Source: Verrucomicrobiota bacterium (GTDB taxonomy: Bacteria; Verrucomicrobiota; Verrucomicrobiia; Limisphaerales; UBA9464). From it: a DNA stretch of 64,000 nt. A program made the position numbers and the translations under genes. Below are positions 2,640 to 43,502 of this stretch, in pieces; position 1 is the first letter of the stretch; every line of letters begins with the position of its first letter. Where the stretch lies: positions 1 to 64,000 of the forward strand of contig CANIZL010000017.1 of the NCBI GenBank assembly GCA_947471985.1, read 5' to 3'. A model generated the notes under the pieces. That model made no database searches. It was given only the letters and a program-made list of their open reading frames with translations, and was not told the DNA's origin.

Positions 2640-4127
2640 TCAGAGGATTCCCTGGATCACATTGGCGCCCTCGACGCCGACCAGTTTTTGATCCAGGCCG
2701 CCGTAGAAATAGCTGAGTTTATTCGGATCAAGCCCCAACTGGTTCAGGATGGTGGCGTGGAGATCCCGCAGGTGGTGGCGATGGACGACGGCTTCGTGGC
2801 CGAGTTCGTCGGTTTCGCCGTACGACGTGCCGCCACGGACGCCGCCGCCAGCGAGGAAATAGGTGAAGCCCTTCGGATTGTGATCGCGTCCGCCCTGGTC
2901 GCCCTGACTCACGGGCTGACGCCCGAATTCGCCACCCCAGACGACCAATGTTTCCTCGAGCATGCCCCGCCGTTCGAGATCTTCGAGGAGGCCGGCGATC
3001 GGTTGATCGATCTCGGGGCAGTGGATCTTCAGATTTTCCTCCACGCCGTTGTGTGCGTCCCAGTTCTGCTGCTGATGCCCGCCGCCGTGGTAGATCTGCA
3101 CGAAGCGAACGCCCCGTTCCACCAGGCGACGTGCGATCAGGCATTGGCGACCAAAGGGTGCGGGTCCCAATGCGAGTGGGTGATCGGTGCGGGCGCCGTT
3201 CAATCCGTAAAGTTCCCGGGTGGCGGCGGTCTCCTGGGAAAGATCCAGCGCCTCGGGCGCGGTGCTTTGCAATTGAAACGCGAGTTCGTAGCTGGCGATG
3301 CGCGCCGACAATTCGGAGTAACCGGGATGGCTGGCGAGATGTTCGGCGTTCAGACCGTTGGCGGCGTCGATGAGGTCGCGCTGCATCGCCGAGGTCACGC
3401 CGGCGGCGGGATCGAGATTCAGGATCGGCTGACCACTCGAACGGAAAACCGTGCCCTGATGCGCCGCGGGCATGAAGCCGCTGGACCAATTCGCGGAACC
3501 ACTGATCGGTCCGCCGCGGGGATCCAGCATCACCACGTACCCGGGCAGATTCTGGTTTAGTGTGCCCAGGCCATAATCCAGCCAGGAGCCCAGCGAGGGA
3601 TGTCCCTGAATGATGCGACCGCTATTCATCTGAATCATGGCGGTGCCGTGGGCGAAGGAGTCGGCGTAGAGGGATTTGATGACGGCCAGCTTGTCCGCGT
3701 GACGGGCCAGGTGCGGCAGGGCATCCGAGACCCAGAGCCCGGATTTCCCGTGCTGAGCCCATTGTCGTCGGCTGCCGAGGAGCTTGCCCGGCTTCACGTC
3801 CCGCAAGCGCAGTTCGAGATTCACCGTCTGGCCATCGCGCTTCTGCAGCTCAGGCTTGTAGTCGAAGAGATCCATCTGCGACGGCCCGCCGTACATGAAG
3901 AGGAAGATGCAGGATTTCACTCGCGTGGGCCGGGCGGGAAGTCGGGCGATGAAGCGCGTTTCGCGTCCGGGATCAGCGGCCTCGGCCCGGGAGAAGAAGC
4001 CCTCGCGATCCAGCAACGCGGTGAGTGCGACGCCGGCGAACCCCGCGCCGGCTTGGCGGAAGAATTCGCGGCGGGAAGCGAGACTGGGTGGGGTCAGCCG
4101 GGTGGGATGCGGGGACGGCGGGTTCAT
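2640..4127 (-). CDS. Tat-exported DUF1501 protein
   Basis: The product is 495 residues. A twin-arginine signal (SRREFF, Arg19-Arg20, then a hydrophobic segment) marks export of the folded protein by the Tat system. The DUF1501 hallmarks follow: CIFLFMYGGPSQMDLFDYKP, the HGGGHQQQNWDAHN stretch, VVWGGEFGRQP and GRDHNPKGFTYFLAGGGVRGG. The fold is related to alkaline phosphatase/sulfatase enzymes and probably binds metal. The biochemical role is not established. It follows the PSD1 cytochrome gene by 11 bases on the same strand; this pairing is extremely common in Planctomycetes and Verrucomicrobiota and implies a joint cell-envelope function. The start at 4127 was chosen because it places the RR motif correctly; a longer frame to 4304 would overlap the upstream gene. 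Confidence 0.92.
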   Translation of the reverse strand: MNPPSPHPTRLTPPSLASRREFFRQAGAGFAGVALTALLDREGFFSRAEAADPGRETRFIARLPARPTRVKSCIFLFMYGGPSQMDLFDYKPELQKRDGQTVNLELRLRDVKPGKLLGSRRQWAQHGKSGLWVSDALPHLARHADKLAVIKSLYADSFAHGTAMIQMNSGRIIQGHPSLGSWLDYGLGTLNQNLPGYVVMLDPRGGPISGSANWSSGFMPAAHQGTVFRSSGQPILNLDPAAGVTSAMQRDLIDAANGLNAEHLASHPGYSELSARIASYELAFQLQSTAPEALDLSQETAATRELYGLNGARTDHPLALGPAPFGRQCLIARRLVERGVRFVQIYHGGGHQQQNWDAHNGVEENLKIHCPEIDQPIAGLLEDLERRGMLEETLVVWGGEFGRQPVSQGDQGGRDHNPKGFTYFLAGGGVRGGTSYGETDELGHEAVVHRHHLRDLHATILNQLGLDPNKLSYFYGGLDQKLVGVEGANVIQGIL

Positions 4128-4138
4128 GGCGTCAGCGT

Positions 4139-7100
4139 TCAGTCGACATAGACCACTTCGTTCAAATTGAGCAGCAACAGGCAGATTGATTCCAGTGCGC
4201 GTTGCGTCGGCGGGGCTGGATCGGGGGTGACGGCAATTCGATGCTCGGTCCCTACCGATTCCGGCTGCAAAGTCAGGTCTTCCAGGCTCAAGGCGCCGCC
4301 CCACGTACGGACGCCGAATAAACCGGATTCCAACAAGGGCTCGGGATCCACCGCGGTGAGCCGGGGGTGCGGATCTGTGCCCAACCAGACTTGGATCCGC
4401 GCGCCGGACAGTTCAATCCGGACCGGGAGTGCGATTCCCGCGGGAAGGTCGGCGGTGGCGGTGGCCAGGGTGCGAACGTTCTTTTCGTGGCGTAGCAGGC
4501 GGATTTCCTGCTGCCGGGTGTCGAAGCATACCTCATATCCGTGCGCCACATCGGCGTCGGCATGGGAGCGGAGCAGCAGGCTGGCGAATTCGGTTGAACT
4601 TGCGAACAGGATCCGGGTGGCGAGGTGACCGTTGGTGAAACGGGCCCCCGGCCAGAGGGCGAACGGTCCCCGCTGGCGATCCACCACCCGAATGCCCTCG
4701 TAGCCCGCCGCCCAGAAGCCGCGGTGATAATTCCAACCGGCGGTGGGGCCGAGTAAAAACTCGTTCGTGCCGAGGCGATCAAAATAATCGGTGGCCAGCG
4801 CGCTGGCGATATCGGGTCGGAAACTCAGGCGCGAGGAAAGGGCGGCGAACGCTGCGGTCTGGCGTTGCCACAAGCCGAGCGCGATTTCCTGTTCCCGCGG
4901 GGTGGGCGCACGGTTGACGGCCAATTGATAGGCCCGCTGGATCTGGCGCGCCGTGTCGTCGCCCGCTTCGCGACGAATCCGTCGGGACATGGCGGCCGCC
5001 TGTTGATGCAGGAAATCATCGTTGAGCAGCATCAACGCCTGCGGAGCGACGGTGGTCGTGGGGCGTTCCCCCTGCGGCGACGTGGTGTTGTTGAAATCGA
5101 AGTTTTCCAGCAAGGGGATCGCCATCGTCCGGCGGACGTAACTGTAAACGCTGCGGCGATTGCGCTCGGCCTCGGTGGAGACATCCCAATCCAATCCCGG
5201 TCGCGACTGGCCAGCCAGCACTTCGCCGCCGAGATGCGGGAAATAACCGCGGCCGCCCATCTGCCGATTCAGGGTGCCGGCGACGCTGAGGACGGTGTCG
5301 CGGATCGCTTCCGCTTCGAGACGCCGCAGGTTCTGTCGCCACAGCAGACGATTGCCGGGATCGGCGGCCAGTGCGGCGGGATTGCCCGTGCGGGAGGATT
5401 GCTGGTAGGTGGCGGAGCGCAGGATCAGCCGGTGCAGGTGCTTCATCGACCAGCCGCCCGCGACGAATTCGGACGCCAGCCAGTCGAGGAGTTTGGGATG
5501 GGTCGGGGGCACGCCGGCCCGGCCGAAATCGGTGGTGGTCTTCACGATTCCCTGGCCGAAGTGATGCTGCCAGAGGCGGTTCACCATCACCCGGGCGGTG
5601 AGGGGGTTCTGCGGACTGGCGATCCACCGGGCGAGGGTAAGGCGGCGGCCGCTCGACGGCGCGTCGGCGGCGGGGGCGGGCAGTTGGGGTTTTTCGTTCC
5701 CGAGAATGCGGAGGAATGCGGGTTCCACCGGCGCGCCGGGTGTGGCGGTGTTGCCGCGGATCAGAATGTGAGTCGCCGGCGGATTGGGACCCGCCTCCCG
5801 GACGGCGAGCGTCCATTCGAACGGCGGGTTGTCCTGCAGTTGGCGGATCTCCTTTTCGAGGCGCTTCTTTTCCGGAGCGTCTGTCGTCTGAACCAGCTTC
5901 TCCCGCAGCGGCTGTATCCGGGCTTGGACGTTGGTTTGCCACAGCTGCACGTCCCGCGGCGGCGCCAGCGGGGCGAAGCCGGGGGAATCGAAGGACGAAC
6001 GGGCGCTTTCAAAGGGGCGAAGGCCCCGGAAAAACGCGAGCATCCCGTAGTAATCCGCCTGTGGCAGAGGATCGAACTTGTGGTCGTGACACCGGGCGCA
6101 TCCCACGGTCAGGCCCAGGAACGCGGCCCCGGTGGTGGAAAGCACGTCGTCCAAGGCCTCGAACTCCGCGGCCAGGCGATCGTCGGGTTCGTCGTTGAAA
6201 ACACCGAGCCGCTGGAATCCGGTGGCGGCCACGGAGTCGGCGGTGGCATCCGGCAATTCGTCGCCGGCGAGCTGTTCCAGAATAAAGCGATCGTAGGGTT
6301 TGTCTTCGTTGAAGGCGCGGATGACGTAGTCGCGGTAACGCCAGGCGAGCAGTTTTTCACCGTCCCGTTCGTACCCGTTGCTTTGGGCGAAGCGGACGAC
6401 ATCGAGCCAGTGGCGTCCCCAGCGTTCGCCGTATTGCGGCAGGGCGAGCAGTTGTTCGATGAGGCGGTTGTAGCGCTCTTCCGAGGGATCCGCGGTGAAG
6501 TCCGCGACGGCCTCGGGGGACGGCGGCAGTCCGAGGAGATCGAAGTAGACGCGGCGGATGAGTTCCCGCGGCGTGGCGGGGGCGTTGGCGGTCAGGCCGT
6601 GGGTGCGCAGTTCCTCGCCCACCAGGGCATCGATGGCATTCGGGCCGGGTGGGAGGGCGGGGCGACGGACCGGTTGATACGCCCAGTAGGCGCGGTCTTC
6701 CGCGGAAATCTGGAATTCCTTGCGGGCGGGGCGGACGGCGGCGGTGCTGCCGGCTGGCAAGGGGGCGCCGAGCTGGACCCATTCCGCGAGGTCGGCCACC
6801 TGACGTTCCGACAGGCGTTGTTTGGGCGGCATCTGCAGGTCCTTGTCCTGATACCCCACCGCCCGGAGCAGCCGGCTTTCCGTGGGATTGCCGGGTTGCA
6901 GCAGCGCGCCGGATTCGCCGCCGGTTCGGATGTGCGCGGGGGAGTCCAGACGCAGACCGCCTTTTTGCTTTTCTTCGCCGTGACAGGAAAAGCAGTTTTC
7001 TGCGAAGAGCGGGCGGATACGGCGCTCGAAGAAATCAATCCCCGCTGCGGTGGGGTCGGCTGCGCGGAGCGCGGTGGCCGACACGATCAGCAGGACCAGC

Positions 7101-7201
7101 CAGGTCCGGTGGATACGGCGCCACCCAGCCGTCGCCGACGAGGTTGTCGGGCGAACGGAGCAGGGCAGGGCGCACCGCGAGGAGGCTGGGCGGGCGGACA
7201 T
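4139..7201 (-). CDS. PSCyt1/PSCyt2/PSD1 c-type cytochrome protein with inserted jelly-roll domain
   Basis: The product is 1020 residues. A signal-like hydrophobic segment (about 33-47) precedes the planctomycete cytochrome domain with heme site C70-x-x-C73-H74 (NCFSCHG). The DUF1549 (PSCyt2) domain follows, with LIRRVYFDLLGLPP and RWGRHWLDVVRFAQSNGYE. The DUF1553 (PSD1) domain then has NPLTARVMVNRLWQHHFG and ATYQQSSR. About residues 815-980 do not look like PSD1; they read like a DUF1080/LamG jelly roll. They are followed by the usual PSD1 ending LNLNEVVYVD, so the extra domain appears inserted near the C-terminus. Start ATG 7199-7201 overlaps the upstream stop in TAATG, indicating coupling. 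The protein should be periplasmic or surface-bound; its partner is the DUF1501 protein just downstream. Confidence 0.92.
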   Translation of the reverse strand: MSARPASSRCALPCSVRPTTSSATAGWRRIHRTWLVLLIVSATALRAADPTAAGIDFFERRIRPLFAENCFSCHGEEKQKGGLRLDSPAHIRTGGESGALLQPGNPTESRLLRAVGYQDKDLQMPPKQRLSERQVADLAEWVQLGAPLPAGSTAAVRPARKEFQISAEDRAYWAYQPVRRPALPPGPNAIDALVGEELRTHGLTANAPATPRELIRRVYFDLLGLPPSPEAVADFTADPSEERYNRLIEQLLALPQYGERWGRHWLDVVRFAQSNGYERDGEKLLAWRYRDYVIRAFNEDKPYDRFILEQLAGDELPDATADSVAATGFQRLGVFNDEPDDRLAAEFEALDDVLSTTGAAFLGLTVGCARCHDHKFDPLPQADYYGMLAFFRGLRPFESARSSFDSPGFAPLAPPRDVQLWQTNVQARIQPLREKLVQTTDAPEKKRLEKEIRQLQDNPPFEWTLAVREAGPNPPATHILIRGNTATPGAPVEPAFLRILGNEKPQLPAPAADAPSSGRRLTLARWIASPQNPLTARVMVNRLWQHHFGQGIVKTTTDFGRAGVPPTHPKLLDWLASEFVAGGWSMKHLHRLILRSATYQQSSRTGNPAALAADPGNRLLWRQNLRRLEAEAIRDTVLSVAGTLNRQMGGRGYFPHLGGEVLAGQSRPGLDWDVSTEAERNRRSVYSYVRRTMAIPLLENFDFNNTTSPQGERPTTTVAPQALMLLNDDFLHQQAAAMSRRIRREAGDDTARQIQRAYQLAVNRAPTPREQEIALGLWQRQTAAFAALSSRLSFRPDIASALATDYFDRLGTNEFLLGPTAGWNYHRGFWAAGYEGIRVVDRQRGPFALWPGARFTNGHLATRILFASSTEFASLLLRSHADADVAHGYEVCFDTRQQEIRLLRHEKNVRTLATATADLPAGIALPVRIELSGARIQVWLGTDPHPRLTAVDPEPLLESGLFGVRTWGGALSLEDLTLQPESVGTEHRIAVTPDPAPPTQRALESICLLLLNLNEVVYVD

Positions 7202-34972: not shown

Positions 34973-35037
34973 CGAATAACGACCGGCTGCAACTATCCGC
35001 TCGCGTCGGGGCGGGCAGCCGCTAGAGTGCGCGCTTG

Positions 35038-35442
35038 ATGGATGCGAAAAAACTCGCCCTCTTGTGCCGCAAGCTCGCCGACGATAAGAAGGCGGAGAAC
35101 TTGCTCGTGCTCGATGTGCGGAAGCTGTCGTCGGTGACGGATTATTTTGTAATCGCCACCGGCACCTCGGAGCCACATCTCCGGGCGATTGAATCGGAAA
35201 TCATTGATACCCTGGCGGTGGACCATGGTCTGCGGCCGACGAGCACCGAAGGCAATGCCCGCTCCAATTGGGTGGTGGCGGACTATTTCGACGTGATCGT
35301 CCACGTGATGAAGAAGGACGTGCGGGAGAAGTACGATCTGGAAGGGCTGTGGAGTGATGCGCCCCGGGTGAAGCCCCCGGCGACCCGTCGCAAGAAGTCG
35401 GCCACCGACACCGACACCGCCGAGGACGCCACCGCGGAATAA
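35038..35442 (+). CDS. rsfS: Ribosomal silencing factor RsfS
   Basis: The product is 134 residues, with the family core in the first 110: LCRKLADDKKAENLLVLDVR, VTDYFVIATGTSEPHLRAI and NWVVADYFDVIVHVMKKDVREKYDLEGLWSDA. It binds L14 on the 50S subunit and blocks subunit joining when nutrients are scarce. The tail is a Lys/Thr/Asp-rich extension. The ATG at 35038 follows a TTG and is preferred. Confidence 0.96.
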   Translation: MDAKKLALLCRKLADDKKAENLLVLDVRKLSSVTDYFVIATGTSEPHLRAIESEIIDTLAVDHGLRPTSTEGNARSNWVVADYFDVIVHVMKKDVREKYDLEGLWSDAPRVKPPATRRKKSATDTDTAEDATAE

Positions 35443-35553: not shown

Positions 35554-37041
35554 ATGTCCATCCGCCGAGTGGTTGTCCTCGGAGCCGGCAGCGCCGGTCT
35601 CATGGCCGCGCTGACTTTGAAGCGCCGCTTGCCCCATCTGGAAGTCTCCATCGTTCGGAGCCCGGACTTGGGGATCATCGGCGTGGGCGAAGGCACGACG
35701 CTGGCTTTTCCCCGGCATTTCTTTGATTACTTGAAGCTCAAGCCGGGGCAGTTCTTCGCCCAAGCCGAGCCGACGTGGAAGTTGGGCATCCGCTTTTTGT
35801 GGGGCAGTCGGCGGGAGTTTTATTATACCTTCGCCTACGAGTTCCAGCAGCGGTTGCCGGAATTGGGGCGCAATAACGGTTTCTTCTTCGATGGCGACGC
35901 CCCGTGGGCGGGTCCCGTTTCGGCGTTCATCGCCCAAAATCGGGCGTTTCCCCGGCGGCCGGATGGGCAACCCCTGTTCCACAACAGTCACGCGTATCAC
36001 ATCGAAAACCGCAATCTGGCGGCGTGGCTGGAAAGTGTGTGCCGCACCCTGGGCATTGGCATCGTGGATGCGACCGTCACGGCGGAGCGCGGGCCCGAGG
36101 GAATTGCGGCCCTGGTGACACCGGCGGGCGAGCGGATCACGGCGGATCTCTTCGTGGATGCTTCGGGGTTTCGTAGCGAATTGCTGGGGCGCAGTCTGGC
36201 CGAACCTTTTATCAGCTACTCGGACACCTTATTTTGTGACCGGGCGGTGATCGGTGGCTGGCCCCGGACGACCGAGCCCATCAAGCCTTACACTACTGTG
36301 GAGACGATGGATTCGGGTTGGTGCTGGCAGATCGAACACGAGAACTTCATTAACCGCGGTTACGTCTACTCCTCGAATTTCATCAGTGACGAGGACGCAC
36401 TGGCGGAATTTCTGCGGAAGAATCCGCAAGTGGCGACCACCCCGCGGGTGGTGAAGTTTCGCAGCGGCCGGTACGCGCGGAACTGGGTGGGCAACGTCGT
36501 GGGTGTGGGGAATGCCGTGGGGTTTGTTGAGCCCCTGGAAGCCACCGCCCTGCAGGTAATCTGTGTCGAAGCCAGCACGTTGGCCGATTCCCTGGTGGAT
36601 TGTCTGGGAGCGCCCACGCCCACGTTGATCGAGTTGTACAATCGCTACAACGCGCAGGCGTGGGACGACATCCGGGATTTCCTCGCGGTGCACTACAAGT
36701 TCAATCGTCGGGTCGACACCCCGTTCTGGCGGGCGTGCAATAACGATACGCCGCTCCACGGGGCCCAATTCCTGGTGGACTTTTATCGGGAGAACGGCCC
36801 CAGCGTGGTGGCGGGAGCGCAATTGCTGCATCCCTCGAACTCCTTCGGCATGGATGGTTATCTCGCGATGCTCGTCGGGCAGGACGTGCCCCACGCGAAG
36901 CCGTATTCACCGTCGTCGGCGGAGCTGAGGGTCTGGCGGGATCGCCAGGCCAAGTGGTCGGCGGAGGCTCAGCGGGGCTTGGACGTGAAGCAATGTCTGG
37001 CGGCGGTGCGCGGTGGGGCGCTGCCGTGGGGCAAACCGTAG
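35554..37041 (+). CDS. Flavin-dependent halogenase (tryptophan-halogenase family)
   Basis: The product is 495 residues. The FAD-binding GxGxxG is RVVVLGAGSAGLMAALTL, and IIGVGEGTTLAFPRHFF fits the GVGEAT motif. Lys76 in TWKLGIRFLWG aligns with the catalytic Lys of PrnA/RebH. Glu329 in FVEPLEATAL matches the catalytic Glu, with Ala instead of the following Ser. Trp256-x-Trp258-x-Ile260 in GWCWQIEH is the WxWxIP motif with Glu for Pro. These points predict a FADH2-dependent enzyme making hypohalous acid for halogenation of an aromatic, possibly free or carrier-bound, substrate. No NRPS, PKS or flavin reductase lies nearby. It starts an operon with the next two lipoprotein genes (2 bases to the next ATG). 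Alignment with PrnA is from memory. Confidence 0.9.
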   Translation: MSIRRVVVLGAGSAGLMAALTLKRRLPHLEVSIVRSPDLGIIGVGEGTTLAFPRHFFDYLKLKPGQFFAQAEPTWKLGIRFLWGSRREFYYTFAYEFQQRLPELGRNNGFFFDGDAPWAGPVSAFIAQNRAFPRRPDGQPLFHNSHAYHIENRNLAAWLESVCRTLGIGIVDATVTAERGPEGIAALVTPAGERITADLFVDASGFRSELLGRSLAEPFISYSDTLFCDRAVIGGWPRTTEPIKPYTTVETMDSGWCWQIEHENFINRGYVYSSNFISDEDALAEFLRKNPQVATTPRVVKFRSGRYARNWVGNVVGVGNAVGFVEPLEATALQVICVEASTLADSLVDCLGAPTPTLIELYNRYNAQAWDDIRDFLAVHYKFNRRVDTPFWRACNNDTPLHGAQFLVDFYRENGPSVVAGAQLLHPSNSFGMDGYLAMLVGQDVPHAKPYSPSSAELRVWRDRQAKWSAEAQRGLDVKQCLAAVRGGALPWGKP

Positions 37042-37043
37042 CC

Positions 37044-38816
37044 ATGTTGCGTCGGAATCCCGAAGGTGGAAGTGGGCGCGGCGCACGGGCCGCGCTGATC
37101 TGGTTGTTCGCGTGCCTGTGGACCGGGTGCGATCGATCACCCGCTCAATCCGTAACGACCGCACCCAAAACCACCGGCGCCCCGCCGGCGGCGCTGGGGG
37201 TAGCCGCGGGGCCGGCCTGGCTGGAAGATGCCACCGCGGCGGTTCACTTGGATTTCGTGCACGTGGCGGGAACGAATTGGTTCATGGCCGACCAGGTCGG
37301 CTCGGGCGTCGTGGTGCAGGATTTCGACAACGACGGGCGGGCGGATTTGTACTTGGTGCAAAATGGCGGTGCGGACTCGGGCGTGCCGAATGCGTTGTAT
37401 CAGCAACAACCGGACGGCCGTTTTCAGGCCCTTGCAGCCGGGTCGTCCGGCGCGGGTTTGGTGGGGCGGGGCATGGGGGCGGTGGCGGGGGATCTCAATA
37501 ACGATGGCCTGGCGGACCTCGTGGTGACCGAGTACGGCGCGGTCCGGTTGTTGTGGAACCACGGTGAAATGAAATTCCAGGAAGTGGGTCGCGCCGCCGG
37601 TCTGGACAATCCGCGCTGGGCTGCTCCAGCAAGTTTCATCGATTTCGACCGCGACGGATGGCTGGACTTGGTGGTGGGGAATTATCTCGACTACGACCCG
37701 ACCCAGGTTTGCCACGACGTGCAGGGCCGGCGTGATTTTTGTTCGCCGGAGGCCTTTCCGGCCACGACCACGCGGCTGTGGCGGAATGTGACCGGGACGC
37801 CGGGAGCCCAGCCCCGGTTTGTCGAGGTCACGGAACGGGCGGGATTGACGCGCCTGCCCGGTGCGGCTCTGGGCCTGGTGTGCGCGGATTTTAATGGGGA
37901 TGGCTGGCCGGATATTTTCTGCGCGGACGACGGGCGGGTGAACCGGTTATTTGTCAATCAACACGACGGCACGTTTCGCGAGGAGGCGGCGATGCGCGGG
38001 CTGGCCTTCAATGCCATGGGGCGCACCGCGGCCAACATGGGCGTGGCGTGGGCGGATTTTGATGGTGACGGGCGGGGCGATCTGTTTGTTACTCACCTGA
38101 CGGATGAGTTTCACTCGTTGTACTGCCAGGATCAGGCCGGGCTGTTTACGGACACCGTGGCGCGTGCCGGATTGCAGCAGCAGGCCTGGCGGGGGACGGG
38201 ATTTGGCACCGTGGCGGCGGATTTTGATAATGACGGAAACGTCGATCTCGCCGTGGCCAACGGGCTGGTTTCGCGGGCCACTCCTCCGCAATCGCCGGTG
38301 CGGCTTGGGGTTTCGCCATGGTGGGCGACGTATGCGCAACGACCCCAGGTCTTCGCCAACACCGGCCAAGGGCACTTTAAGGATCAATCGCCCGCCAATC
38401 CCGCGTTTTCCGGTACTGCTTCCGTGGGACGGAGCCTGGCGGTGGCGGATCTGGATCGGGATGGGGGACTGGATCTGGTCCTGGGGAACGTGGCCGGCCC
38501 TGCGGTCGTGTTGCGCAACGTGGCTCCAAAACGGGGGAACTGGTTGCAGTTGCGACTTGTCGATCCGGCCCACGGCGGGCGCGATGCCATCGGTGCGGAG
38601 GTAACGCTGCGGGCGGGTGGACGACGCCAATGGGCCGTACTGCAACCCGCGATGAGCTATCTGTCGAGTCATGAACCCATGCTGCATTTCGGCCTGGGCG
38701 CGATCCCGGTGGTGGACTCGATCGAAGTGCGCTGGCCGGAAGGCGTGGTGGAGAAATTTCCGGGCGGCGCGGCCGGCCAACGCCGGGTATTGGCCCGCGG
38801 CTCGGGCCAACTTTGA
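37044..38816 (+). CDS. CRTAC1-type lipoprotein with FG-GAP/VCBS repeats and ASPIC/UnbV domain
   Basis: The product is 590 residues with a lipoprotein signal ending FACLWTGC. It contains at least six Ca-binding FG-GAP/VCBS blades, each with D-x-D/N-x-D-G: DFDNDGRADLYLV, DLNNDGLADLVV, DFDRDGWLDLVVGNY, DFNGDGWPDIFCADD, DFDGDGRGDLFV and DFDNDGNVDLAVANG. The C-terminus is the ASPIC/UnbV domain (RNWLQLRLV-like, GAEVTLRAGGRRQ, and IEVRWPEGVVEKF). It should be an integrin-alpha-like propeller on the outside of the cell. It starts 2 bases after the halogenase stop and the following TPR gene may overlap its stop codon, so it is part of that operon. Confidence 0.93.
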   Translation: MLRRNPEGGSGRGARAALIWLFACLWTGCDRSPAQSVTTAPKTTGAPPAALGVAAGPAWLEDATAAVHLDFVHVAGTNWFMADQVGSGVVVQDFDNDGRADLYLVQNGGADSGVPNALYQQQPDGRFQALAAGSSGAGLVGRGMGAVAGDLNNDGLADLVVTEYGAVRLLWNHGEMKFQEVGRAAGLDNPRWAAPASFIDFDRDGWLDLVVGNYLDYDPTQVCHDVQGRRDFCSPEAFPATTTRLWRNVTGTPGAQPRFVEVTERAGLTRLPGAALGLVCADFNGDGWPDIFCADDGRVNRLFVNQHDGTFREEAAMRGLAFNAMGRTAANMGVAWADFDGDGRGDLFVTHLTDEFHSLYCQDQAGLFTDTVARAGLQQQAWRGTGFGTVAADFDNDGNVDLAVANGLVSRATPPQSPVRLGVSPWWATYAQRPQVFANTGQGHFKDQSPANPAFSGTASVGRSLAVADLDRDGGLDLVLGNVAGPAVVLRNVAPKRGNWLQLRLVDPAHGGRDAIGAEVTLRAGGRRQWAVLQPAMSYLSSHEPMLHFGLGAIPVVDSIEVRWPEGVVEKFPGGAAGQRRVLARGSGQL

Positions 38817-38830
38817 ACCTGGCTCCCCCG

Positions 38831-40213
38831 ATGATCTTGAGCGTTCAGAAACACGACTCCCAAACCGCCCAACCGATGGGGTGGCGTGGGGTTCTTCTGG
38901 CGGGTTGCCTGGGACTGGTGCCGCTCACGGGCTGTTCGCCCAAAGCGCCGGAGTCGGCGGCTCCACCAGCATCGTTGGCGCCCGCCGCACCCGTGGCACC
39001 GCCGGAGGTGGTAACGGCGGGTTTGGATCCCGCACTGCAGTCCACGCTGGCCCGGGCGCGGGCCCAGTTGCTGACGAATCAGCTTTCCGCGATGGCCTGG
39101 GGACGCTACGGGCAGGCTCTGGACGCGGCTGATTTCGGCGCCCCGGCGGAATTCTGTTACACGGAGGCGCGTGCTCGGGATCCGCTTTCTCCCCGCTGGC
39201 CGCATCTGCTGGGATTGCGCCAATTACGCGAACAACCGGACGCCGCCCTGGAGAACCTGGACCGGGCGATTCGCTTGAGCGGCGTGACCAATGACGCCTC
39301 CCGCTTGCGGCGGGCGCAGGCATTGATCGAGCGGGGACGCTGGACGGACGCCACCAATCAATTGCACGCGCTGCTGTCGGTCGTGCCCGGGCATCCGGCG
39401 GCCCGCCTCGAATTGGCGCGGGCATCGCTGGCGCTCGGGGCGGTGGAAGCGGTGCCGGCGCTGTTGGCGCCCTGCCTGTCCAATCCGTACACAGCCCGTC
39501 CGGCGCACGTCCTGTTCGGACAGGCGCGCTTGCGGCAGGGACAAGCTGACGCCGCGCAGCGCCATTCCCAGATCGCGGCGGCGATGCCCAAGCCTTTTGA
39601 CTGGCCGGATCCCTTTCTGCGGGAAGTACAGGATTTGCGACTCGATGTTAGCAAACTGGCGGAACAGGCGAACGCCCTGCTGCGGGAGCGACGTTTGCCC
39701 GAAGCCGAGACGGTGGTGTCGAACCTGTTGATCCGCGTGCCGGATGACGCAGAAGGTTTGCTGCTACAGGGGCGGATCCGACTGCAACAACGTCGCTGTG
39801 CGGAGGCGGAAGCCCTCTTTCAGCGGCATTTGGTCGCGCGTCCGAATTCACCCAACGGTTGGGCCCAGCTGGGCATGGCGTGTTATTGTCAATCGCACTG
39901 GGCCGCGGCGACGGACGCGTTCAAAAAAGCCACCGTGCTGAAACCCGACTTCGCCCAGGCCCATTTCAATCTGGGACTCTCTCACTCCCGCCAGGGGGAC
40001 GGACCGGGGGCCATCGCCAGCCTGAAGGAAGCGCTGCGCTGCGATCCCAGCGATGCCACGGCGCACGTGGCCCTGGCGGAGGAGTATCTGCGCGCCGGGG
40101 ACCTGGGGACGGCGGCCCAGCACGTCGAGGCGGCCAGTGCCTTGTCTCCCCAATTGCCCAAAATCAAGGCCCTGCGGGAACGACTGAGAGTGGCGGCGCC
40201 AGCGACGCCGTAG
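38831..40213 (+). CDS. TPR-repeat lipoprotein
   Basis: The product is 460 residues with a lipoprotein signal ending LVPLTGC. At least eight tetratricopeptide-like units follow, for example EFCYTEARARDPLSPRW, AQALIERGRWTDATNQL, GRIRLQQRRCAEAEALF, WAAATDAFKKATVLKPDFAQ and YLRAGDLGTAAQHVEAA. It is a protein-interaction scaffold at the membrane facing the periplasm. ATG 38831 was chosen; a TTG at 38813 overlapping the upstream stop (TTGA) is possible. CRTAC1 plus TPR pairs are common in PVC genomes; here they follow the halogenase. Confidence 0.88.
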   Translation: MILSVQKHDSQTAQPMGWRGVLLAGCLGLVPLTGCSPKAPESAAPPASLAPAAPVAPPEVVTAGLDPALQSTLARARAQLLTNQLSAMAWGRYGQALDAADFGAPAEFCYTEARARDPLSPRWPHLLGLRQLREQPDAALENLDRAIRLSGVTNDASRLRRAQALIERGRWTDATNQLHALLSVVPGHPAARLELARASLALGAVEAVPALLAPCLSNPYTARPAHVLFGQARLRQGQADAAQRHSQIAAAMPKPFDWPDPFLREVQDLRLDVSKLAEQANALLRERRLPEAETVVSNLLIRVPDDAEGLLLQGRIRLQQRRCAEAEALFQRHLVARPNSPNGWAQLGMACYCQSHWAAATDAFKKATVLKPDFAQAHFNLGLSHSRQGDGPGAIASLKEALRCDPSDATAHVALAEEYLRAGDLGTAAQHVEAASALSPQLPKIKALRERLRVAAPATP

Positions 40214-40364: not shown

Positions 40365-43300
40365 TTACGGCAGGATCTGGCCGCGGATTTCGCCGCCACC
40401 GAACTGCGTCGTGTGGATGTTGAAGTACCAGCCGCCGGAGACGATGGCGGTCTTTTGATCGGCCGTCAGTGTGGCCGTGCCCGAGATGATCCCCGAGAAG
40501 CTGCCGACCAACGGCGTGAAGCCGATGGACACCGGGCCGGCGACGCCGACCGCGCCGTTGTGGATGTGCGACGCGGTCAGACCGGTAGTCAGGCCTTCGT
40601 AGCTCACGTAGTAGGTGAGGTTCTGGCCTTCAATGATCGCGAGGCCCAACCCCGTGGCGGTCGAGGCCGGCTTGTTGGGTTCCTGCGCGGCATCCAAATG
40701 CGCCTTGAACAGTTGGACGGTCTTGGTCGCACCGTCGAGCACGCGGATGAAGCCCGCACCGCCGACGAGCGGCAGCGTCACGCTGCGATCCGAGGTGGTG
40801 ACCGTGTCGATCCAGGTGCCGAGAACCGGCGAGGTCTGGACGAGGAACGGACCCGCGCCGCCGGTCCAGGTGACGGTAATGTCCGGGGACTGGCGTCCTT
40901 GCCGCGTGGCGGTCACTTCGATGGGCTTGGTGACGACCGGCAGGGAATCGGGACCGGCAGCAAAGCTGGCCGTGACCTGAGCCGGGGTGAGCGCGCCCTG
41001 ATAGATGCGGAACTCATTGTACTTGCCCTTGAAGCTGGGATCCGCCGGGAACTGGGACTTGCCCAGCCAGTTATTGACGTCGCCCGTCAGCTCGGAGAGG
41101 CGCTTGGTCGTCGAACCCACCACGACTTCGGTGCCGTTGGTGAAGACGCGCACCGTGCTGCCGGTGAAGCTGTAGGTGATCGCCAGATGCATTTGCTCGC
41201 CGATCGGCGTGGAACCCGGCGTGCTGACGACGGTGGAGTCGCCGCCGTTCGGGAAGTTGGCGATGAAACGGGGCATGCCGTCGCCGGTCTTCGGGGTGAA
41301 GAAGAGGTAGTCCTGACCATTGCCGGTGCCGTCTTCCCCGTCCACCTGGCTGCCGAAATCAAACATACGGGACCAGGCGGGACCGCCGTCGTAGGTGAAC
41401 CAGGCTTCGATCGTACCATTGTCGCCCAAGGACGAAATGATGCCGTTCGGGAGGTTCACGTAGCCGTCCGTGCCATCGAGGGCGAGTTGGCCGCCACCGA
41501 GGGTACCCGTGCCGTTCAACGTGCCGTTCGCGGTGCCCACGGAGTCTTTTACGGACGTGCCGGAGGTCTCGGAGAAGCTGTACCGGTGCTTCAGGGTCAC
41601 CGTGTCCGAAACGACGATCAACGTCGCGGGAGCACTGGCCACGGTCACCGCCGTGGCGCCGGAGCCGTTGGAGACTTTCGCCGTGAACTTCGCATTGTTG
41701 TCCGCGGCGGAAACGGCCGGAATCGTATAGCTGCTGCCGGTCGCGCCGGGAATGGCGACGTCATTCCGATACCATTGGATCGTGATGGGAGTGGATCCCA
41801 GGCTCGCCACGCTGAACGTGGCGGACAGGGTTTCCGGGATCGTCTGGTTCGACGGTTGCTGGGTGATGGTGGCCGCGACGTCGTGATCGTTGATCAGATC
41901 CGGACCGGCCAGGGCGTTGCCCAAGGCCTGTTGCGGGGTCAATGCCGTATTGTAAATACGGAACTCATCGTACTCACCCTGGGTGTTTTGGTCGCCGTTC
42001 CAGTTGGAGCGGCCCAGCCAGACATTGACGTCGTGCAGATCGCTCATCGGATCGTCCGTCGTCAGGCTGGCGATTTCGAGACCGTTCTCATATAGAACGA
42101 TGCGGCCGGTGCTTTCCTTCCAGGTGACCAGGACCTGGAAGTCCTTGCCGAAGGTCTTGGTCGATGAATCCGACGTCACAATACCGCCGTTCGCTGGATC
42201 CTCATTACGGATTTCCAAGCGGCGGCTGCCCGTGTCGTCGCCGATTTGGGCGGAGAGTTCGAGGTAATCGAGGCCTGTGCCGCCACCACCGGGGCCGGTC
42301 ACTTCGTTGTCCGTCTCCGACGTGGAAGAACCGATATCGAACACGCGCGACCAGGTGCGGGCGCCGGTTACCTTCATCCAGGTTTCGATGGAGACCTCAC
42401 CCGAACCCCCATTATTGGTGCTGTTCGAGGAGATGATGCCGTTCGGCAGATCGCCGAAAGCGGCGGTGCCCGAAGGCCCGCCGGCCAGGACGAGGCGGCT
42501 GCCTGAGAAGGCGGCGCCGTCACCCTGCACCTTGCCGTGAGCGGTCCCCACGGAATCCTTGAACTCCGCATCCGTGGCATTGGCCGCCGCGGTTTCGCTG
42601 AACGAATACCGGTGGATGGGGCCTTTGGTCAGCCGGGCCGCAACGATGGGCGGCGGCGGAGCGGGATCGACGAAGTCGCCCTTTTCCAGATTGTAGTTCG
42701 CGAGAACCTGCTCCGGAGAGAGGACTCCGTCATGGATGCGGACCCGGGCGATGGCCCCGGTGTAGCGCAGGCCGCCCGTGGGGGTGACTCCGTCCGCTTC
42801 CAGCTGATTGGCAATATTGATGGCAGTGTCCGGATGGGTGTTCAGCACGTCCGGGCCGAGGATTTCCGCGTTGGTGAGTTTGCCATCCGCGTAGACCCGG
42901 CTGGTGGTTTCATCGTAGGTATAGACCAGGTGATGCCACTTGTTCGGGGCGGGATTGCCGCCGTCGTTGTTCCACCCGAGGTCGGGCGCGCCCCAGTGCC
43001 CCATGGCACCCCAGCGGAAGTCCGAGCCGTAACCGAAGGAGACGTTGGAGCCGTCTGGTCCACCGCGGTGGCCCCAGGAGACGAGGGTTTCTTCGCCCGC
43101 AACATTGGGATTCAGCGTCCACACCTCGATGGAATGCGTGGGGTTGGGTCCCGTGATGCTGGCCGGGGCGGTGATCAGGGAACCCCCGACGGCGTCCTCG
43201 AGCTGGAGGAAGTCCGTGCCGTCGAAATTCAACGCCTTGGTGCCGCCCACCAGTTGAACCGCCGGCCGGTCGGCCTCGGTTCCGGTGGCACCGAACACGC

Positions 43301-43502
43301 CGCCCAAGGTTCCTTTATTGGGAACGCTGGTCACTGAGCCCAAGGCCAAGCCGGTGGCGTCGACACTTACCAGGAGATCTCCCGCCTTTTGAACCTGTGC
43401 CTGGGCGCCGAAGGTGAGTGCGCCAGCGGCTAGCAGTGCGCAGGTCCAGCCTGGCAGGCCACGACGGGGAGCGGTCGGGGCCGTTCTTTGGTTGTTCTTC
43501 AT
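40365..43502 (-). CDS. Large secreted protein with three LamG domains, Ig-like domain and CHRD domain
   Basis: The product is 1045 residues with a signal peptide (WTCALLAAGALTFGAQAQ). Three concanavalin/LamG modules follow: LNFDGTDFLQLED to YTGAIARVRIHDGVLSPEQV, HRYSFSETAAANATDAEF to YDEFRIYNTALTPQQ, and HRYSFSETSGTSVKDSV to YNEFRIYQGALTPAQV. An Ig-like domain (ITQQPSNQTIPETLSATFSV, then IQWYRNDVAIPG) lies between modules two and three. The C-terminus is a CHRD domain (AHLDAAQEPNKPASTATG, HIHNGAVGVAGPV, and GGWYFNIHTTQFGGGEIRGQI). It is a typical surface or extracellular protein of the group; modules two and three share openings and look like duplicates. ATG 43502 begins the signal. It is divergent from a pseudopilin-headed gene. 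Confidence 0.9.
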   Translation of the reverse strand: MKNNQRTAPTAPRRGLPGWTCALLAAGALTFGAQAQVQKAGDLLVSVDATGLALGSVTSVPNKGTLGGVFGATGTEADRPAVQLVGGTKALNFDGTDFLQLEDAVGGSLITAPASITGPNPTHSIEVWTLNPNVAGEETLVSWGHRGGPDGSNVSFGYGSDFRWGAMGHWGAPDLGWNNDGGNPAPNKWHHLVYTYDETTSRVYADGKLTNAEILGPDVLNTHPDTAINIANQLEADGVTPTGGLRYTGAIARVRIHDGVLSPEQVLANYNLEKGDFVDPAPPPPIVAARLTKGPIHRYSFSETAAANATDAEFKDSVGTAHGKVQGDGAAFSGSRLVLAGGPSGTAAFGDLPNGIISSNSTNNGGSGEVSIETWMKVTGARTWSRVFDIGSSTSETDNEVTGPGGGGTGLDYLELSAQIGDDTGSRRLEIRNEDPANGGIVTSDSSTKTFGKDFQVLVTWKESTGRIVLYENGLEIASLTTDDPMSDLHDVNVWLGRSNWNGDQNTQGEYDEFRIYNTALTPQQALGNALAGPDLINDHDVAATITQQPSNQTIPETLSATFSVASLGSTPITIQWYRNDVAIPGATGSSYTIPAVSAADNNAKFTAKVSNGSGATAVTVASAPATLIVVSDTVTLKHRYSFSETSGTSVKDSVGTANGTLNGTGTLGGGQLALDGTDGYVNLPNGIISSLGDNGTIEAWFTYDGGPAWSRMFDFGSQVDGEDGTGNGQDYLFFTPKTGDGMPRFIANFPNGGDSTVVSTPGSTPIGEQMHLAITYSFTGSTVRVFTNGTEVVVGSTTKRLSELTGDVNNWLGKSQFPADPSFKGKYNEFRIYQGALTPAQVTASFAAGPDSLPVVTKPIEVTATRQGRQSPDITVTWTGGAGPFLVQTSPVLGTWIDTVTTSDRSVTLPLVGGAGFIRVLDGATKTVQLFKAHLDAAQEPNKPASTATGLGLAIIEGQNLTYYVSYEGLTTGLTASHIHNGAVGVAGPVSIGFTPLVGSFSGIISGTATLTADQKTAIVSGGWYFNIHTTQFGGGEIRGQILP

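Follow-up and report, generated by a model that had tools for sequence, protein, structure and literature searches.

The window, by which we mean the whole stretch of 64,000 nucleotides that was analysed, carries a gene for a flavoenzyme of the Trp_halogenase family, followed on the same strand by two lipoprotein genes and, in convergent orientation, by a gene for a large secreted protein. The features to which we refer are the following:

35554 to 37041, plus strand: flavoenzyme gene of the Trp_halogenase family (ATG at 35554, stop codon TAG at 37039-37041, 495 aa)
35779 to 35781, plus strand: Lys76, catalytic in flavin halogenases and kept in 72 of 72 relatives
36319 to 36339, plus strand: WCWQIEH (W256-C-W258-Q-I-E261-H), with WxWxI kept, Pro replaced by Glu261, and then His262
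36538 to 36549, plus strand: E329-A330-T331-A332, the catalytic Glu and halide loop, from the alignment of 72 relatives
37044 to 38816, plus strand: CRTAC1-like lipoprotein (Pfam FG-GAP_3 and UnbV_ASPIC; ATG at 37044, stop at 38814-38816)
38831 to 40213, plus strand: TPR lipoprotein (Pfam; possible starts at 38813, 38831 and 38876)
40365 to 43502, minus strand: secreted protein carrying Ig, CHRD and three LamG domains (Pfam Laminin_G_3 at 5.5e-50, CHRD at 3e-23)
42672 to 43376, minus strand: ND, the N-terminal Trp-rich LamG domain of that protein, about 235 residues, which is the co-occurring module

The gaps around the four genes range from 2 to 151 bp. As the original prediction had it, the ATG of the CRTAC1 gene (37044) lies 2 bases past the stop codon of the enzyme gene, and the TPR gene starts 14 bases past CRTAC1 if ATG 38831 is used, or overlaps it if TTG 38813 is used; with a start at ATG 38876 the lipoprotein signal is tighter. 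Reading the two downstream proteins, CRTAC1 and TPR, we found the lipobox-like motifs LWTGC and PLTGC. The LamG gene, which the original prediction had overlooked, lies 151 bp past the TPR stop, with its likely ATG at 43502 in an ORF that is open to 43655. Regarding the surroundings, Pfam searches on twenty further large ORFs of the window agree with the earlier statement that no NRPS, PKS or flavin reductase is nearby, and no RiPP enzymes were found among the window ORFs scanned (the large ones, with the small ones partly covered). A RiPP precursor gene was considered as well, and the gaps around the enzyme gene are too small for a typical one (tiny ORFs partly screened). Just upstream of the enzyme gene lies rsfS, for a ribosome silencing factor (35035-35442), which is likely a chance neighbour since it does not recur beside the enzyme in relatives. 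Further away, at 2643-7201, the window holds DUF1501 and a PSD1/PSCyt2/PSCyt1 pair, typical of PVC bacteria.

To place the locus among its relatives we gathered 56 loci with named records and added those of 58 relatives and of 388 genomes across the phylum, giving 82 distinct loci. Cultured bacteria are among the carriers of the gene, namely Luteolibacter pohnpeiensis KCTC 22041, Haloferula rosea KCTC 22201 and Roseibacillus persicicus KCTC 12988 (loci L041, L055 and L058). The three-gene order highlighted in the original prediction does recur: ten loci, all from the near clade, show enzyme and CRTAC1 in succession (the window, L027, L029, L032, L104, L105, L106, L111, L112 and L116), and TPR follows in nine of them, the contig of L106 ending within CRTAC1. 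An apparent 4-bp overlap in L108 was set aside, as it rests on an over-extended start. Since the order is conserved across relatives, the coupling of the three genes is not due to chance. Nevertheless, in a FastTree tree CRTAC1-TPR is restricted to one enzyme clade and is missing from part of it, and close relatives without the pair still keep the LamG gene, so that we discarded CRTAC1-TPR as the defining partner of the enzyme. The CRTAC1-TPR coupling is an addition particular to one clade, on top of a broader tie between the enzyme subfamily and exported surface proteins; as a partner, the LamG protein is conserved over a wider range of relatives.

Orthologues of the LamG gene adjoin the enzyme gene in several arrangements: on the same strand upstream, downstream, divergent, or convergent past CRTAC1-TPR as in the window. 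In L028, L030, L107, L108, L110, L113, L118 and L038 the LamG gene immediately precedes the enzyme gene on the same strand, and in L050, L037, L039 and L073 it lies downstream. Within the clade, the available flank, which in some cases stops at a contig end, contains no LamG gene in L027, L033-L036, L040, L105 and L112. The ND domain appears in two architectures, either as one ND with ordinary LamG domains (the window type) or as three ND copies, some of them with TSP3 repeats. Of the LamG ORFs in the window genome, about 28 in number, a single one has an ND, and it is located in the enzyme locus. On the tree, the ND-linked enzymes form one clade, with the exception of L062, which lies outside it and has its ND four genes away.

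We then counted enzyme and ND across genomes. Among 320 genomes of the order, 21 have both, 2 only the enzyme, 33 only ND and 264 neither (Fisher 2.6e-16); that is, ND is found in 21 of 23 enzyme-positive genomes versus 33 of 297 enzyme-negative ones. The two exceptions with enzyme only are G007, whose enzyme gene is truncated inside a contig (about the first 180 residues are absent), and G029, a genome 70% complete in which the enzyme gene is cut by the contig end. Our first sample of 58 relatives gave 12, 3, 4 and 39 genomes for the same four classes (p = 7e-7), the enzyme-only ones being again G007 and G029 together with G002, which has enzyme fragments with stops only and lacks ND. A within-genus comparison in the family, which takes out most of the shared ancestry, gave a product probability of about 1e-4. 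Besides, enzyme and ND lie on the same contig and within 10 kb in 15 of the 21 genomes carrying both. ND of the window type (E up to 1e-70) is present in 15 genomes. Of these, 13 are enzyme-positive, G020 has a fragment of the enzyme at the edge of a contig, and G491 lacks the enzyme. The link is weaker in the phylum-wide sample, with ND in 4 of 12 enzyme-positive genomes, the window genome included. According to these results, the enzyme co-occurs with, and is linked to, the ND-bearing LamG protein. LamG proteins are an abundant family, and one of them could stand beside the enzyme by chance; we rejected this on the ND-specific counts.

One could argue that these genes travel together on a shared mobile or commonly inherited segment without any biochemical link, given that their distribution is patchy within genera and that they are carried together in several lineages. 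We consider such hitchhiking very unlikely, because enzyme and ND are found together in upstream, downstream, divergent and convergent positions, with or without CRTAC1-TPR, and because G046 has retained both on separate contigs, each well inside its contig. In this last genome, TPR and LamG are convergent as in the window (L153, G046:C16:106000-124000), with enzyme and CRTAC1 paired on a different contig.

The enzyme itself matches Pfam PF04820 (Trp_halogenase) over residues 5-446 at 3.8e-97, with 326 bits against a curated cut-off of 21, and the glycines of its GxGxxG FAD motif (G10, G12 and G15) are invariant. No signal peptide was seen in its sequence. The catalytic Lys76 and Glu329 and the double Trp, already pointed out in the original prediction, are present as described: Glu occupies position 329 in 72 of 72 relatives, and Trp256, Trp258, Ile260 and His262 are equally invariant. 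Two substitutions that it had also noticed, Glu for Pro in GWCWQIEH and Ala after the catalytic Glu, extend to the whole subfamily. The Pro of WxWxIP is Glu in 63 and Asp in 9 of the 72 relatives, so the complete motif is absent from the subfamily, which has WxWxI[E/D] throughout; position 330 is Ala in 69 of 72 and position 331 Thr in 71 of 72. A third change had escaped that reading: the Gly of the halide loop (position 332) is Ala in 64 and Ser in 8 of the 72, and the loop here reads Ala-Thr-Ala instead of Ser-Thr-Gly after the Glu. Given their recurrence across the 72 relatives, we take these oddities (Glu/Asp261, Ala330 and Ala/Ser332) as fixed traits of the subfamily. Throughout the subfamily, two motifs associated with halogenation have changed; for this reason, halogenation by this enzyme is a prediction, and we use ‘halogenase’ as a family name and for a predicted activity, the complete WxWxIP being absent.

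Both sequence and fold place the enzyme nearest to MibH. MibH (5uao) was the best PDB sequence match, at 1.1e-87 versus 4.3e-58 for the next, with 38% identity over 474 residues (34% over 402 for RebH). An AlphaFold2 model built with 59 relatives (mean pLDDT of 94.4) again gave MibH as the best Foldseek hit, at 2.8e-46 versus 8.4e-39 for the next, and the fold comparison yielded a Z of 44.5 with an rmsd of 2.1 over 480 residues, the next structure reaching 42.2. 

With these data, we tentatively propose, as a possibility short of a probable one, that the flavoenzyme halogenates Trp in a cognate exported protein before export. It would belong to the MibH branch and work in the cytoplasm as a two-component-type flavoenzyme, in which HOX (HOCl or, as likely, HOBr) would be made at the FAD and handed to Lys76/Glu329; in the cognate protein, at least one Trp side chain would then be halogenated prior to Sec export. 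In the window genome this protein would be the LamG protein at 40365-43502, and in the CRTAC1-TPR clade the two lipoproteins may aid its surface assembly or display. We infer the LamG protein as substrate, Trp as site, halogen rather than oxygen as the group installed, and the biological purpose. The partner has a signal peptide and the enzyme does not; were the partner the substrate, it would therefore be modified before export. Two precedents make us favor the LamG protein: the flavoenzyme QhpG oxidises peptidyl Trp in the cytoplasm prior to export (PMC7876137), and ChlH, which is MibH-like, can chlorinate a Trp within a protein of 1054 aa, although it spared almost every other Trp in proteins (PMC12518702). 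The co-occurrence and linkage of enzyme and ND, the single ND of the window genome, the grouping of ND-linked enzymes in one clade, the LamG/PATR adjacencies given below and the closeness to MibH speak for the same proposal. Against it count the loss of the WxWxIP Pro, the 33 genomes of the order with ND-like domains and no enzyme, the enzymes of the clade with no LamG gene in the available flank, the different contigs of G046, and the fact that a short cyclic peptide is the sole substrate of MibH, while ChlH was poor on most proteins (PMC12518702). We also sought in the ND domains a signature Trp unique to enzyme-accompanied partners and found none; the conserved ND Trp are present where the enzyme is absent too (L148), and hence no substrate Trp can be named.

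Most characterised members of the family use small molecules, and non-Trp enzymes such as BrvH take indole (PMC5945002). Hence, the enzyme could instead halogenate a small indole or phenol, with LamG, CRTAC1 and TPR as non-substrate members of the same surface or polysaccharide-handling regulon; LamG proteins can bind glycans, and one relative (L054) sits among GH95 and pectinesterase genes. We regard this alternative as somewhat unlikely, since biosynthetic genes are absent around the enzyme among the window ORFs scanned, the closest structure is that of a peptide enzyme, and the enzyme is associated with a single special LamG domain and not with LamG or polysaccharide genes in general. For the algal or exopolymer phenol originally suggested as substrate we found no support, the nearest structural relative acting on a peptide. 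The ‘surface-linked system’ of the same prediction holds as far as the link to the surface goes, but CRTAC1-TPR is limited to a clade and the strongest partner is the secreted LamG protein.

The motif changes bear on another question, namely whether the same protein partner is hydroxylated at Trp by the enzyme acting as a monooxygenase, as QhpG does in the making of a Trp-quinone. We keep this alternative because WxWxIP has been proposed to prevent hydroxylation (PMC10696468, PMC5945002) and its Pro is replaced in every relative; the loss of the halide-loop Gly points the same way. It is nonetheless distinctly unlikely in our view: Lys76 and Glu329, required for HOX chemistry, are kept without exception, and the similarity to QhpG is marginal (32 bits versus a cut-off of 240). 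The Gly loss is itself compatible with halogenation, since in RebH the halide is held via backbone amides of the loop, and BrvH, with Ser at that position, still brominates (PMC5945002).

Among more distant relatives, outside the ND clade, other exported proteins are often found beside the enzyme: large proteins with PATR (autotransporter-associated) repeats in L045, L046, L049, L081, L120-L122, L132 and L134, and small PEP-CTERM proteins in L041, L044, L047, L058 and L069. LamG or PATR genes were adjacent on 34 of 148 sides, versus 12 of 379 for genes three or more away. One set of autotransporter-repeat-linked enzymes falls in a clade other than the ND clade. We treat the PATR adjacencies as weaker, suggestive evidence because the genomes in question are very rich in PATR proteins. 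The autotransporter-repeat neighbours of L045, L046, L049, L081, L120 and L122 have in common a C-terminal tail, YEYRTFSLxGSxGLPxKGFLRVxVTP, possibly a sorting or anchoring signal. G309, a one-contig genome, has four enzyme copies (L120, L123, L128 and L134), each in a different neighbourhood, and two of them adjoin a different large PATR-repeat protein. In a separate enzyme clade, a second, divergent Trp_halogenase gene comes directly after the first (L052, L057, L062, L068, L128, L130 and L131, and also L055, L070 and L132); an alanine racemase gene is next in L052 and, by clustering, in L057, L062 and L068, which suggests a different substrate for this clade.

On a broader scale, and with slightly more doubt than we attach to the window enzyme, it is possible that a subfamily in Verrucomicrobiota and related bacteria is dedicated to halogenating (or hydroxylating) Trp in large surface proteins that are secreted, and that every enzyme has a cognate partner of its own, be it of the LamG, the autotransporter-repeat or the PEP-CTERM kind. 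To our knowledge, the natural peptide-modifying flavin halogenases known so far work in the making of small peptide natural products. If genome content and linkage tie a subfamily to exported proteins of about 1000 residues, this would bring natural halogenation to structural proteins outside RiPPs, and with it a new class of post-translational modification for bacterial surface proteins. It would also provide enzymes for Trp in large proteins, which are wanted in biocatalysis. The LamG link would point to a substrate that can be tested, where chemistry alone allows no guess, and the subfamily-wide change of Pro to Glu/Asp is a natural test of the role of WxWxIP. Our literature search gave no paper joining a halogenase with LamG/Verrucomicrobia or with autotransporter/PEP-CTERM proteins, and a 2025 review of peptide halogenation names RiPPs, NRPS intermediates and free Trp as the substrates of natural flavin enzymes, and describes none that is dedicated to large proteins (PMC12615548).

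Finally, we compared the locus with the known systems. The free-tryptophan halogenases RebH, PrnA and PyrH share with the enzyme the fold (Z of about 38-42), GxGxxG and the catalytic Lys and Glu; they differ in their lower identity (28-34%), and here no biosynthetic cluster is seen among the window ORFs scanned and the subfamily motif changes are present. The indole halogenase BrvH resembles it in having a non-Gly residue at the halide loop, Ser versus Ala here (PMC5945002), but retains WxWxIP and is 27% identical. MibH, the peptide Trp 5-halogenase of the lanthipeptide NAI-107 (PDB 5UAO), has, like ChlH, the same Lys and Glu and a similar C-terminal G(L/M)xGxxxxLxGQ(E/D)VP region, whereas its WCWTIPT and ESSG read WCWQIEH and EATA here; both enzymes, like SrpI, are RiPP peptide halogenases, and no RiPP locus was found here among the ORFs scanned, the partner in the window being an exported protein of about 1050 aa in place of a short precursor peptide. 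Regarding the peptidyl-Trp dihydroxylase QhpG, it belongs to another branch of the superfamily but would follow the same logic that we propose here, with a cytoplasmic flavoenzyme acting on Trp of a co-encoded exported polypeptide (PMC7876137).
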